64,000 bases of DNA from Planctomycetota bacterium. Its GTDB lineage: Bacteria > Planctomycetota > Phycisphaerae > Phycisphaerales > Phycisphaeraceae. Each line of letters opens with the position of its first letter. Within the stretch, counting starts at the first letter, position 1. The stretch spans positions 310,001 through 374,000 of the forward strand of contig JAIOPN010000014.1 in NCBI GenBank assembly GCA_021413865.1, read 5' to 3'. Shown here in pieces: positions 32,183 to 36,702 of the stretch. The translations under genes and the position numbers were made by a program. The notes under the pieces were generated by a model that saw only the letters and a program-made list of their open reading frames with translations, was not told the origin of the DNA and searched no databases.

Positions 32183-33469
32183 TCACATCTTCTTGATGAT
32201 GATCGTGTCGTTCTGCCCACCAAACCCGAACGAGTTGGACAAGCAAACGTCCACCTTCGTCTTCCGCGCCGCGTTGGGGACGTAATCCAGATCGCACGCG
32301 GGGTCGGGCGTCTTGAGATTGATCGTCGGCGGGACCGTCTGGTCGCGCAGCGCCAGGACGCAGGTGATGAGTTCGACCGCGCCGGCGGCGGCGATGAGGT
32401 GGCCGAGCATCGACTTGACGCTGCTCATGGGGACGGACTTGGCGTGGTCGCCGAAGACGGTGCGGACGGCGCCGGTCTCGGTGGAATCGTTTTCCTTGGT
32501 GCCCGTGCCGTGGGCGGAGATGTAGTGGATGTCGGCGGGCGTCAGGCCCGCGTCCGCCAGGGCCAGGCGCATGGAGCCGACGGCGCCGTGGCCGTCCTCC
32601 GGGATGTCGGTGATGCGGTAGGCGTCGGCGGTCGAGCCATAGCCGACGATCTCGGCCAGGATCGGCGCGTTGCGCGCCCTGGCGTGTTCGAGGGTCTCGA
32701 TGATGAGCATGCCCGCCCCCTCGCCCAGCACGAAGCCGTCGCGGTCCACGGAGAAGGGCCGGCTGGCGGTGAGGCAGGAGTCATTGCGGCGGGAGAGCGC
32801 GGTGAGGCGGTTGAAACCCGTGACGCCGAAGGGGTGGATCATGGTGTGGGCGCCGCCGGTGATCATCACGTCGGCGTCGCCGCGGCGGAGGACCTCGGTC
32901 GCCTCGCCGATCGCCTGGGTCGAGGCGGCGCAGGCGGTCAGGCAGTTGTACGCCGGGCCCTCGGCGCCGAACTCCAGCGCCAGGTGCGTCAGCGGCATGT
33001 TGGGCTCCTGCTCGGTCTCACGCATGGCGTTCATGCGCTTCGAGGCGATGGCGGCCCACCTAACCGAGTCGGTCTTGCGCTGCTCGTTGTCCCACGAGCC
33101 CAGGTTCGCGGCGATGTAATTCCCGAAATCCAGCGAACCCTCGCCCGAGCCCAGGTAGATGCCCATGCGCTCGGGGTTGAGGCCGGCGAACTTGTCCAGG
33201 CCCGCGGAGGTCCACGCCTGCGACGCCGCCCCCAGCGCGAAGGCGGTGTTGAGGCCGACGCCCTCGTGCAGCGCGGGCTTCTTCACGAAGCGTGTGTAGT
33301 CGTAGTCCTTCACCTCGGCGGAGAAGGTAGTGGGGAACGTGGTGGCGTCGAAGTGCGTGGTCTTGGCGATGCCGCACTCCCCGCGCAGGAGCCGGGACCA
33401 GACGGACTCGATCGAGTGGCCCAGGGGGGTGACCCAGCCGATGCCCGTGATGACGACGCGTGTTTTCAT
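32183..33469 (-). CDS. Beta-ketoacyl-ACP synthase (active, FabF-like)
   Basis: A 428-residue condensing enzyme that extends an acyl chain with malonyl-ACP. The full Cys-His-His triad is present: Cys180 in LTACAAST, His320 in ISAHGTGT and His357 in SMLGHLIAAAGA, with Lys352 also conserved. The start (VVITGIGWVTPLGHS) and end (SNSFGFGGQND) match FabF. It is the last gene of a four-gene minus-strand group that also encodes a ketosynthase without catalytic residues. This suggests a specialised chain-elongating complex rather than housekeeping FabF. It has its own leaderless-type promoter. No ACP gene is adjacent. Confidence 0.92.
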   Translation of the reverse strand: MKTRVVITGIGWVTPLGHSIESVWSRLLRGECGIAKTTHFDATTFPTTFSAEVKDYDYTRFVKKPALHEGVGLNTAFALGAASQAWTSAGLDKFAGLNPERMGIYLGSGEGSLDFGNYIAANLGSWDNEQRKTDSVRWAAIASKRMNAMRETEQEPNMPLTHLALEFGAEGPAYNCLTACAASTQAIGEATEVLRRGDADVMITGGAHTMIHPFGVTGFNRLTALSRRNDSCLTASRPFSVDRDGFVLGEGAGMLIIETLEHARARNAPILAEIVGYGSTADAYRITDIPEDGHGAVGSMRLALADAGLTPADIHYISAHGTGTKENDSTETGAVRTVFGDHAKSVPMSSVKSMLGHLIAAAGAVELITCVLALRDQTVPPTINLKTPDPACDLDYVPNAARKTKVDVCLSNSFGFGGQNDTIIIKKM

Positions 33470-33485: not shown

Positions 33486-34475
33486 TTACAGCGCCGACCA
33501 GTCGAAAACCGCCGCGGGGTGCGAGAGCGTCTGGTGGAGCAGCCCCTGGTAAATGGGCTGCGGGTCGCGCGGCGGGACGGCCAGGTAGAGCCCATCGACG
33601 CGCACACGCCCCTCGGCGAGCCAGCGCATCGCGGCCGCGAAGCTGCCGAGCATGCTCCCCATGCGGAACTCCGCCGGCTCGATCGGCACCTCCCACTCCC
33701 AGCCCGAACGCAGCGTCGCGTAGCGGTGGAAGACGGCGTGCAAAATGTCGAACGCGCTCAGGTCGGTCCGCTTCTTCCACGGCACGCCGATCATCACCAC
33801 CTCGCCGCGCTTGGCGACGAGCTTCAAACCATCCAGCACCGCCTGCTCGTGGCCGGAGCACTCGGCGTGCAGCGATATCTTCTTCGCCAGCGGGTCGGTG
33901 GGCGGGACGTTGGCGACAACGCTCTTCAGGCCGAGTTTCGACGCGAGCTGGCGGCGCGACTCCACGGGGTCGGCCGCGGTGACGCTGTAGCCGCAGGACT
34001 GGAAAATCTGCGCCGCGAGGTTGCCCACGGGCCCCAGGCCGGTGACCAGCACGTTGGCGGGCGGCCGGGCAAGAGTGGTGGTGAGCGTGGACATGCTCAC
34101 GCCCATGAGCCGCGAGAAGACGGCCACGCGCGGGTCCAATCCGTCCGGCATCTTCACGGCGTAGGTCACCGGGACCCGCTGCCAGGAGCGGTGCGGCCCC
34201 ATCGTGAAGACGCGGTCGCCGGGCTTGACGGCCGTGACCTCCGCGCCGGCCCGCTGGACCTCGAAGATGCAGGCGTAGCCCGGGTACGCGGGGAAATTCG
34301 CGCCCAGGTACTGCCAGTTCAATTCCGTGCCGGGGCTGGTGAGCGAGGCGAGCGTCGGGCCCTCGACCTCGTTGGCGGCCAGCGGCGCGGGGTCTCCGGG
34401 CAGCTCGACCAGCTCGGCGCGCTGAGCGGCGGTGAAGGCGACGGCGCGGATCGTCGTGGATGTTGCGGTGGTCAT
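33486..34475 (-). CDS. MDR-family alcohol dehydrogenase-like oxidoreductase
   Basis: A 329-residue medium-chain dehydrogenase/reductase. The GroES-like N-terminal half has SLTSPGTELNWQYLG and YPGYACIFEVQRAGAEVTAVKPGDRVF; the Rossmann half has VLVTGLGPVGNLAAQI. The classical zinc-ligand Cys/His set is not evident; the TSPGTE motif resembles BchC-type members. The NAD(P)-dependent reaction and substrate are unknown. AAGGAG lies 10 nt upstream, and its ATG overlaps the stop of the upstream isomerase-like gene (ATGA). The neighbours suggest a role in the same ketosynthase pathway, by inference. Confidence 0.85.
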   Translation of the reverse strand: MTTATSTTIRAVAFTAAQRAELVELPGDPAPLAANEVEGPTLASLTSPGTELNWQYLGANFPAYPGYACIFEVQRAGAEVTAVKPGDRVFTMGPHRSWQRVPVTYAVKMPDGLDPRVAVFSRLMGVSMSTLTTTLARPPANVLVTGLGPVGNLAAQIFQSCGYSVTAADPVESRRQLASKLGLKSVVANVPPTDPLAKKISLHAECSGHEQAVLDGLKLVAKRGEVVMIGVPWKKRTDLSAFDILHAVFHRYATLRSGWEWEVPIEPAEFRMGSMLGSFAAAMRWLAEGRVRVDGLYLAVPPRDPQPIYQGLLHQTLSHPAAVFDWSAL

Positions 34476-35314
34476 CGGATCGTTACTCCTTCGCGCGCGG
34501 CGACGGCGCGGACGTGGTCCGCCGCGGCGCGGTACTCGGATTCCTCGGGCGGCAGGTGTTCGAGCATCAGCGGCGTGTCGGGGTCGAGCCTGCCGAGCTC
34601 GCGCAAAAAGGCCGCGTAATCCAGCACACCCGTGCCCGGCCGGCACTCGTCCAGGTGAACGGTGAGCTTGGGGTGCAGGACGATGTCCTTGCCGTGGCAG
34701 CTCTTGATGTACGGCCCGAGCTTGGCGAAACAGTCGCGGATGAAGCCGCCGGTGTCGTAGGCACGCGACGGGCAGTTCACCATGTTCACCGGATCAAGAT
34801 GGACGGCCACCCGCGTGCGGTCGATCGCCTTGAGCAGACGCAGGTAGGCGTCGGGCGAGTCGGGCCATATCCAGGGCATGGTCTCGAGTGTGTAGAACGT
34901 GCGCGTCGGCTTCACGGCATCGACGATCTCACGCACGCACTGCACGATCATGTCGAACGTCGCCTCGGTGAGGTTTTCCGGGTGCGGGCCGTCCCACTTG
35001 GCGGGGTTGCGCGAGCCGACGATGTTCACGCAGCTCCGCGCGCCCAGCTCATCGGCGATGGCGAGACGCTTCTTGCAGATCGCCAGGCCGGCGGTGCGCT
35101 TCTCGTTGTCCGGCGAGATCGGGTTGGACCACGCGCCGACCTCGGCGATGAGCAGGTTGTGCTTCGCCGCCGTCTCACGGTATGCACGGACCACGTCCGG
35201 CGCGGCGGCGTCGAGGTTCGGTGCGTAAGCGGCGGAGTAGCCCTGGCGGAGGTGGGACTGCACCCACGCCTCGGGGTCGGCCGGTTTGTCGAGGACGGGA
35301 CCACCTAGTCGCAT
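34472..35314 (-). CDS. Sugar phosphate isomerase/epimerase (TIM barrel)
   Basis: A 280-residue AP endonuclease 2-like TIM barrel. Candidate metal-site segments are EVGAWSNP, FYTLETMPW (Glu), VHLDPVN (His/Asp), SCHGKDI (His) and MLEHLP (Glu). GAGG lies 8 nt before ATG 35314. Its stop overlaps the next gene by 4 bp (ATGA), so it is coupled to the MDR oxidoreductase. An isomerase plus a dehydrogenase often act on sugars or cyclitols. Whether that links to the flanking ketosynthases or is a separate catabolic pair is open. Confidence 0.85.
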   Translation of the reverse strand: MRLGGPVLDKPADPEAWVQSHLRQGYSAAYAPNLDAAAPDVVRAYRETAAKHNLLIAEVGAWSNPISPDNEKRTAGLAICKKRLAIADELGARSCVNIVGSRNPAKWDGPHPENLTEATFDMIVQCVREIVDAVKPTRTFYTLETMPWIWPDSPDAYLRLLKAIDRTRVAVHLDPVNMVNCPSRAYDTGGFIRDCFAKLGPYIKSCHGKDIVLHPKLTVHLDECRPGTGVLDYAAFLRELGRLDPDTPLMLEHLPPEESEYRAAADHVRAVAAREGVTIR

Positions 35315-35349: not shown

Positions 35350-36702
35350 TCACGCCCTGCCCAGCACCATCGCCGCGTTCTGCCCGCCGATGCTGGTGCT
35401 GAAGGTGAGCACGTGGCGCAGCGCGGCCTGCCGCGCCGGGGCCGTCGCCGCGTTCAGGCCGGGGAGCGGGTCGTCGCAGTTGATGACCGGCGGGATCGTC
35501 TGCTCGGCCAGCGCCTTGGCGGCGACGGCGGTGTCGATACCGCCCGCCCCCGCGCCGCAACTGCCCAGATAAGGCTTGGTGGAGACGAGCGGGATTTTCG
35601 CCAGCGCATCGCCGAAGACGGTGCGCATCGCGTTGGCCTCGGCGGCGTCGTTCTCGGCGAAGCCCGCGCCGATGGGGATGATCAGGTCGATCGCGTCGGG
35701 CGTGAGCTTCGCGTCGCGGAGCGCCGCCTTGATCGCCAGCGCGATGCCCCGACCGGCGGGGTCGGGCCGGAGGCTGCGCGACTCGGGGTGGATCGTCTGC
35801 GAGGCGCCGAAGCCCAGCACACGGGCGTAGGCCCTCGCGCCCCCGCGGCGCTTGAAGCCCTCGAGTGATTCCAGGACCACGATGCCGCCGCCCTCGCCGA
35901 TGACGCTGCCGGCGGCGGAGCGCGAGAAGGGGCGCACGGCCGAGGCGGGGTCGCCGTCGGGCGGGTTGGCGATGGTGTTGAGCCGGCCGGTGATGATCTG
36001 GCGGAGGAAGGCCATCGGGTTGAACTTGCTCTCCGCGCCGCCGCAGAAGCAGGCGTCGGCGGAGCCGCGCTGGATGACGCGGAACGACTCGCCGATCGAC
36101 AGGCCGCTCGACGCCTCGCCGCAGGTAATCGTGTTCGACGGGCCCTGCGCGTCGTGGATGATGGTGACGTGGCAGGCGAGCATGTTGGGCAGGTACTTGA
36201 GCAGCCAGAGCGGCGTGAGCTGCGTGATGCCCTCGGAGCCCCACTTGTGCATGTCGAGCCCGCCGGTGGCCTCGGCCCCCGATTCGGCGCGGGAGGAGGC
36301 GAGGGCGAAGGTCAGCTCATCAAGCTCGGCGGCGATGAGCCCCGCGCCGATGTGCGCGCCGACCCGCGCGGGGGGATACGACGTGGCGACCGTGGAACCC
36401 TCGGCGGCCGTACCCTTGGTCACCAGCCCGGCGTCACGCGCCGCCTGGTCCGCCGCCGCCACCGCGATCTCGATGTCCCGGGCCATGACCTTCACGGCCT
36501 TGCGGTAGCTCTTGGGGACGTAGCTGCTGACCTTGAGGTCGCGCACCTCGGCGCCGATGCGGCTGGTGAAACCCGCGGGATCGAACGCGGCGATCGGCGC
36601 GATAGCACTCCTGCCCGCGAGAAGGGCCGACCACGTGGCGTCGATGCCGACGCCCAGGGCGGTGATGGGGCCGAGGCCGGTGATAACCACGTCGCGCTGC
36701 AT
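35350..36702 (-). CDS. Catalytically inactive ketosynthase (chain-length-factor-like)
   Basis: A 450-residue thiolase-fold ketosynthase homologue. It keeps the fold signatures (VVITGLGPITALGVG at the start, FSTSIGGQNAAMV at the end) and the conserved Lys of TKPYLG. Gap-free alignment with the active enzyme at 32183 shows all three catalytic residues replaced. Cys180 corresponds to Glu196 (TCGEASSG), His320 to Ile344 (IPIGAGFAEND) and His357 to Ser381 (YLGSCGAG). Loss of the Cys, with an acidic or amide replacement, is what chain-length factors (KS-beta) of type II polyketide synthases show. It probably dimerises with the active KS. AAGGGAA precedes ATG 36702, and TACACT lies about 25 nt upstream. 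Confidence 0.85.
   Translation of the reverse strand: MQRDVVITGLGPITALGVGIDATWSALLAGRSAIAPIAAFDPAGFTSRIGAEVRDLKVSSYVPKSYRKAVKVMARDIEIAVAAADQAARDAGLVTKGTAAEGSTVATSYPPARVGAHIGAGLIAAELDELTFALASSRAESGAEATGGLDMHKWGSEGITQLTPLWLLKYLPNMLACHVTIIHDAQGPSNTITCGEASSGLSIGESFRVIQRGSADACFCGGAESKFNPMAFLRQIITGRLNTIANPPDGDPASAVRPFSRSAAGSVIGEGGGIVVLESLEGFKRRGGARAYARVLGFGASQTIHPESRSLRPDPAGRGIALAIKAALRDAKLTPDAIDLIIPIGAGFAENDAAEANAMRTVFGDALAKIPLVSTKPYLGSCGAGAGGIDTAVAAKALAEQTIPPVINCDDPLPGLNAATAPARQAALRHVLTFSTSIGGQNAAMVLGRA

Follow-up and report, generated by a model that had tools for sequence, protein, structure and literature searches.

Type II polyketide synthases (PKS) have long posed the question of how a ketosynthase without catalytic activity could turn into a subunit that the system cannot do without. 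A locus of a Phycisphaerales bacterium raises this question in the phylum Planctomycetota. In the stretch of 64,000 nucleotides that we analysed (the window), a protein with a ketosynthase (KS) fold but without the catalytic triad, here called KSB, is encoded close to KSA, a FabF-type ketosynthase. What does KSB do, and where did it come from? Our analysis indicates that KSB is likely a non-catalytic subunit, similar to a chain-length factor (CLF), of an obligate KSA–KSB heterodimer, which would serve a second chain-building system whose product is probably an acyl chain for the cell envelope. The features of the window are listed in Table 1.

Table 1. Features of the KSB–KSA locus, with positions in the window.
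Feature	Position	Strand	Remarks
KSB, ketosynthase-fold protein without catalytic triad	35350..36702	-	450 aa
PLWLLKYLPNM, KSB residues 164-174, presumed dimer-interface / partner-pocket segment	36181..36213	-	
Glu196 codon, nucleophile (Cys) position of KSB	36115..36117	-	alignment, DNA check
Ile344 codon, first catalytic His position of KSB	35671..35673	-	alignment, DNA check
Ser381 codon, second catalytic His position of KSB	35560..35562	-	alignment, DNA check
AP_endonuc_2 / xylose-isomerase-like TIM barrel, between KSB and KSA	34472..35314	-	absent there in nearest relatives
Zinc-type dehydrogenase (MDR), between KSB and KSA	33486..34475	-	homologue in 1 of 15 related genomes
KSA, FabF-type active ketosynthase (C180, H320, H357), presumed KSB partner	32183..33469	-	428 aa
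RETEQEPNMP, acidic counterpart segment in KSA	32993..33022	-	

An earlier sequence-only reading had proposed a ketosynthase homologue at this position with all three catalytic residues replaced. We confirmed the open reading frame on the minus strand; translation of the plus strand yields an unrelated frame that is interrupted by a stop. KSB matched both the N-terminal (1.5e-28) and the C-terminal (4.1e-19) ketoacyl-synthase domains of Pfam. The replacement of Cys180, His320 and His357 of KSA by Glu196, Ile344 and Ser381 of KSB was confirmed on the DNA, and the active FabF site (Cys-His-His-Lys-Phe) is absent from KSB, in which the Phe position is Ile as well. The alignment of the two proteins had been described as gap-free, which is wrong for the full length: the two proteins, of 450 and 428 residues, start with an offset of 16 residues, and this increases to 24. 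Likewise, the conserved Lys is present in KSB of the window (Lys376), but it is not a feature of the family, as only 40 of 110 homologues have it. Against the NCBIfam fabF model KSB scored 258.6 bits, with a cut-off of 493.75. A fold search against the PDB returned ketosynthases exclusively, with FabF on top and KS-CLF entries slightly below, and did not separate CLF from FabF for KSB.

KSB orthologues were found in all 41 related genomes searched, in a few of them as pieces at contig ends. They contained no internal stops, shared about 45-70% identity across genera and had long invariant blocks. Of 110 aligned copies, 103 have Glu at the nucleophile position, 6 have Asp and 1 has Gln; none has Cys. 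Variation among these copies extended to the two His positions, to the Lys and to the gating Phe, and in Phycisphaerales the His positions drifted to Phe, Leu, Asn, Asp, Ile and others. Every KSA copy whose sequence covers these positions had C-H-K-H-F (alignment of 101 rows, one of which is the genome's own housekeeping FabF). Since the orthologues are free of stops in all 41 genomes, the nucleophile position is E, D or Q throughout and the KSA site is intact, the sequences indicate that catalysis is lost in KSB, yet the protein is retained. In some Planctomycetia, the loss is less complete than in Phycisphaerae. KSB homologues of Planctomycetia (class names were assigned from named contigs and kinship labels) often keep the first His, the Lys and even the second His (D/E-H-K-H), and some have lost the Cys and the gating Phe and nothing else (D-H-K-H).

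The conservation of the two proteins is swapped. The catalytic loops had a conservation of 0.55-0.63 in KSB versus 0.87-0.98 in KSA, whereas KSB was the more conserved protein at FabF positions 127-163 (0.87 versus 0.68) and 60-85 (0.80 versus 0.59), as numbered on the E. coli FabF sequence, which gives the same columns as the window genome's own FabF. The first of these regions includes the segment FabF 130-142, which we take to lie near the dimer axis and the partner's pocket in ketosynthases. It holds the nearly invariant KSB signature PLWLLKYLPNM, about 20-30 residues ahead of the nucleophile site. At FabF 133-138 KSB reads W (110/110), L/M, any residue, K (110/110), Y/F and L (110/110). 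KSA reads E-x-E-Q-E at the same positions, within the consensus (R)ExEQEPNM, with E134 in 99, E136 in 98 and E138 in 95 of the 101 rows. As far as the sequences can tell, unlike charges in the same segment, Lys in KSB and Glu in KSA, are what a hetero pair rather than a homo pair would want. In the ApeO-ApeC pair, both subunits are reported to line the cavity, with His138 (ApeO) and Glu142 (ApeC) at its end (PMC8358021). An AlphaFold2 model of the KSB monomer gave a good KS fold (pLDDT 87.7, pTM 0.88), in which residues 164-170 (PLWLLKY) were among the few segments with a pLDDT below 50. This low value would fit an element that is ordered by a partner.

KSA was located downstream of KSB within the same stretch at 99 of 109 loci, so that an intact KS accompanies KSB there as it does in the window, where two genes lie between them. 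The sequence-only reading had seen a dead and an active ketosynthase outside any classical polyketide cluster. The pairing holds, but the pair is not a lone one. In several other lineages it belongs to an operon with the order hotdog dehydratase 1 (FabZ-like1), in some cases FabG, an acyl carrier protein (ACP) of about 135 residues, hotdog dehydratase 2 (FabZ-like2), KSB and KSA. The five-gene operon was contiguous, and hence includes the cognate ACP, at eight loci (L043, L056, L079, L108, L163, L165, L166, L175). The flanks of the operon differ among lineages, with seryl-tRNA synthetase and competence genes at L165 and L166 and a DUF362 ferredoxin-like gene at L163; therefore, the operon itself is the unit. 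In the genome of the window, dehydratase 1, ACP and dehydratase 2 are on another contig, C59 (L123 6728-8276, minus strand), apart from KSB and KSA. Their translations contain the hotdog His/Glu motifs and the ACP Ser. The operon ACP was present in 38 of the 41 related genomes. Near the dehydratase-ACP-dehydratase operon on C59 we also noted a phytanoyl-dioxygenase-like gene, and an XcyI-type restriction endonuclease together with a DNA methylase (L123:12216-14508).

The pair is not everywhere linked. No KSA adjoined KSB in two stretches from the order-level family f2, and the KSB homologues of Planctomycetia are not beside KSA; both Planctomycetia genomes in which we looked for a KSA operon (L176, L177) had one, unlinked to KSB. 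The genome of the window also has a housekeeping FabH-FabD-FabG-AcpP-FabF cluster on contig C38; KSA is therefore not its sole elongation enzyme. We considered whether KSB and KSA are themselves a housekeeping FabF pair, and rejected this because of the cluster on C38, the FabF of which groups apart in the trees.

The MDR and TIM-barrel genes look unrelated to KSB and KSA, between which they form a sugar-metabolism-like two-gene unit with very short gaps (33486-35314, minus strand). The MDR was considered as an enoyl reductase by comparison with a rhizobial cluster, but membership of either gene in the pathway is unsupported, given their distribution among relatives (Table 1). They are probably an insertion and stand outside the five-gene system. 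At 37 loci a gene separates KSB from KSA; of its copies, the two that were scanned (L100:9456-10175, L061:9435-9929) encode PD-(D/E)XK nuclease-like proteins (PDDEXK_3).

A comparable pair exists in another lineage of the phylum. Anammox-type genomes encode pairs of a live KS and a dead KS with V/F-N-K-E (L221:6202-8730, L223:5257-7862, L227:5535-8083), and chains B and C of PDB entries 9s5h and 9s5i are close matches to the L221 pair from end to end. Like KSA and KSB, these are a live and a dead planctomycete KS; the anammox pair lies next to a FabZ-like gene and was solved in one entry. We found no publication on 9s5h in our literature search. The anammox dead KS differs in belonging to a separate lineage that groups with the KS/CLF-like pair of L235, in having Val or Phe at the nucleophile position, and in following the live gene. 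By analogy, the anammox complex may serve as a precedent within the phylum for pairing of KSA and KSB.

The swapped conservation, the interface signature, the poorly ordered model segment and the anammox precedent together argue for an obligate heterodimer in which KSB would shape the pocket of KSA; we infer the physical heterodimer, the shaping of the pocket and the control of chain length from these patterns. In the proposed mechanism, KSA would perform the Claisen condensation and KSB would form the other half of the dimer. Trp166 of KSB and its neighbours would reach across the interface into the acyl pocket of KSA, and KSB would thereby influence substrate choice or final chain length in the manner of a chain-length factor. 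The pair would work with the dedicated 135-residue ACP and the two hotdog dehydratases, such that the five genes would make up a second FAS-II/PKS-II-like synthase beside the housekeeping FAS. That every one of the 41 relatives has KSB speaks for a core pathway of the lipid type and not for a polyketide cluster of secondary metabolism. LpxC was found in 40 of the 41 related genomes. Given the near-universal presence of the system in this LpxC-bearing background, our best guess for the product is an envelope acyl chain that is long or special in some other way.

Other roles for KSB were weighed against the same evidence. Loss of three catalytic residues might in principle indicate a decaying pseudogene or an artefact of sequencing or assembly, but the data refute this reading, to which we assign practically no probability: stop-free orthologues occur in 41 genomes, they share 45-70% identity between genera and have invariant blocks, and all 110 copies carry E, D or Q in place of the nucleophile. 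The non-random occupation of the Cys position, nearly always by E, D or Q, would also suit a KSQ-like decarboxylase or priming subunit, in which the acidic or amide residue helps to convert malonyl-ACP into acetyl-ACP starters, and so would the first His, Lys and even second His kept in many Planctomycetia homologues. Ketosynthase decarboxylation requires two His residues, however, and in KSQ-type malonyl decarboxylases Gln replaces Cys while both His are retained. In KSB of the window Glu takes the place of Cys, Ile that of the first His and Ser that of the second; both His positions drift in the Phycisphaerales copies, and the catalytic loops of KSB are relaxed, which makes this role unlikely.

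The same low probability applies to a role apart from KSA, in which KSB would be a homodimeric protein that binds or senses acyl-ACP or acts as a scaffold and merely shares the operon. Such a role would explain why the family persists without adjacency in Planctomycetia and family f2; the Planctomycetia homologues that are unlinked to KSA, some with both His, could indeed have another job. It fits poorly with a nearby KSA at 99 of 109 loci and with opposite charges at the same interface segment, and the two Planctomycetia genomes examined do have their unlinked KSA operon. Finally, the strong retention of Glu might reflect other active-site chemistry, or an entry point for a preformed acyl unit into fatty-acid synthesis, a role suggested in 2009 for unusual FabF paralogues in anammox planctomycetes (PMC2649909). 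We consider this very unlikely, as KSB retains no candidate for a nucleophile or general base and its His, Lys and gating-Phe positions all vary.

The reading as a chain-length-factor-like partner is thus preferred, and a dead partner as proposed from sequence alone is the best explanation, with support from the operon, the conservation and the interface signature, although KSB does not group with actinobacterial CLFs in the best trees. With the CLFs of type II PKS (KS-beta; actinorhodin CLF 1tqy_B and those of Streptomyces plasmids L129, L229-L231 and L233 were compared) it shares a ketosynthase fold with the catalytic Cys replaced, an adjoining live KS and an ACP partner, the latter encoded on the other contig in the genome of the window. 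CLFs have Gln or a close variant at the nucleophile position. Those compared had Gln, Gly or His there, Asp at the first and Arg at the second His position (QDKR-type), and the Streptomyces CLFs read S-E/D-Q-A-G-G-type, whereas KSB has Glu with other drift and Gln in only 1 of 110 copies. Furthermore, KSB comes first in its operon and CLF second, and unlike type II PKS CLFs, KSB is near-universal among relatives and has dehydratases in its unit. KSB would hence work like a CLF, but we do not file it as one, because it lacks the Gln motif and the trees do not place it firmly. Two Streptomyces plasmids carry tandem KSs (L234:2507-5486, L128:4001-6611). In the second KS of each, Ala replaces Cys (A-H/D-K-H), and a PLFFVEGLP segment resembles the KSB signature, and in L234 a dehydratase gene lies between the KSs.

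Other systems resemble the whole unit. The highly reducing and aryl-polyene pairs Iga11-Iga12 and ApeO-ApeC, and AmcF-AmcG, likewise combine a KS and a dead partner with an ACP and a ketoreductase or dehydratase to make reduced chains (PMC8358021, PMC10698177), but the known examples belong to secondary-metabolite clusters, and ApeC retains a single thiolase-fold domain whereas KSB retains both Pfam halves. The rhizobial acpXL-fabZXL-fabF2XL-fabF1XL cluster also has a dedicated ACP, a dehydratase and two tandem FabF-type genes, next to an additional dehydrogenase and acyltransferase; we liken it to the KSB system as a functional analogue, and a fabF2XL mutant loses the very-long-chain acyl group of lipid A (PMC11901934).

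A dead FabF paralogue in planctomycetes has been known since 2009. Rattray et al. (2009) reported Asp (RB3714) and Glu (RB4527) in place of Cys163 in Rhodopirellula baltica as well as further odd FabFs of Kuenenia (Kuste3606, Kuste3348, Kuste2805), which they read as recruiting products from outside FAS (PMC2649909). RB4527 (Glu163, His298, Lys328, Asn333) has the pattern of several Planctomycetia KSB homologues (EHKN-type). Their account contains no partner role, operon of this kind, interface signature or intact sister (PMC2649909), and a survey of KS-CLF pairs in 2023 listed planctomycetes among the phyla that have them (PMC10132072). Neither the operon, contiguous or split, nor the interface signature, the intact sister or the near-universal occurrence in relatives turned up in the literature searched. 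New here are the breadth of the family, the operon, the signature and the sister.

That sister emerged from trees of 77 and 84 sequences (LG+F+R5). The KSB homologues of Phycisphaerae and Planctomycetia formed one group, and their sister was the first KS of the operons of family f19 (L156, L157, L180), with SH-aLRT/UFBoot support of 99.3/100 and 99.5/97. A phylogeny of KS-alpha, KS-beta and FabF had been suggested as a check on the CLF reading; the best trees set KSB apart from housekeeping FabF and grouped it with planctomycete KSs and not with actinobacterial CLFs. Monophyly of KSB with actinobacterial CLFs was not rejected by AU tests (p 0.14-0.47); an origin of KSB independent of these CLFs is thus favoured by the trees, not proven. 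Membership of KSB in the family of the anammox dead KSs was unsupported by the tree and borderline in the AU test (p 0.049 and 0.09 for the smaller and the larger set, respectively).

The f19 operons contain two catalytically intact tandem KSs after dehydratase-ACP-dehydratase (L156:7071-9862, L157:8683-11331, L180:7642-10322). The first occupies the slot of KSB after dehydratase 2, has an intact C-H-K-H-F and carries PLWLLKHLPNM; the second is without the acidic EQE motif of other KSA. An AU test did not reject a grouping of the first KS with KSA (p 0.16), whereas a recent local duplication was rejected as its source (p 0.014). Because f19 keeps an intact sister in the same operon slot, specialisation as a partner probably preceded the loss of catalysis, as judged from these sequences. 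The simplest order runs from tandem active KSs through specialisation of the interface and loss of the Cys to erosion of the remaining site. It is conceivable, though we hold it only tentatively, that planctomycetes evolved a CLF-type subunit of their own, separately from actinobacteria, in a core five-gene lipid system of which ancestral, intermediate and final states are still extant. Catalysis would then have been lost stepwise, with the Cys alone gone in some Planctomycetia and everything in Phycisphaerales.

Live, half-eroded and dead forms thus occur within one phylum, and the live and dead ones share an operon slot. This opens the sequence of events to experiments in which subunits are reconstituted and exchanged. 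Phycisphaerales have unusual envelopes and few genetic tools, and the locus exposes in them a near-universal, uncharacterised second fatty-acyl synthase.
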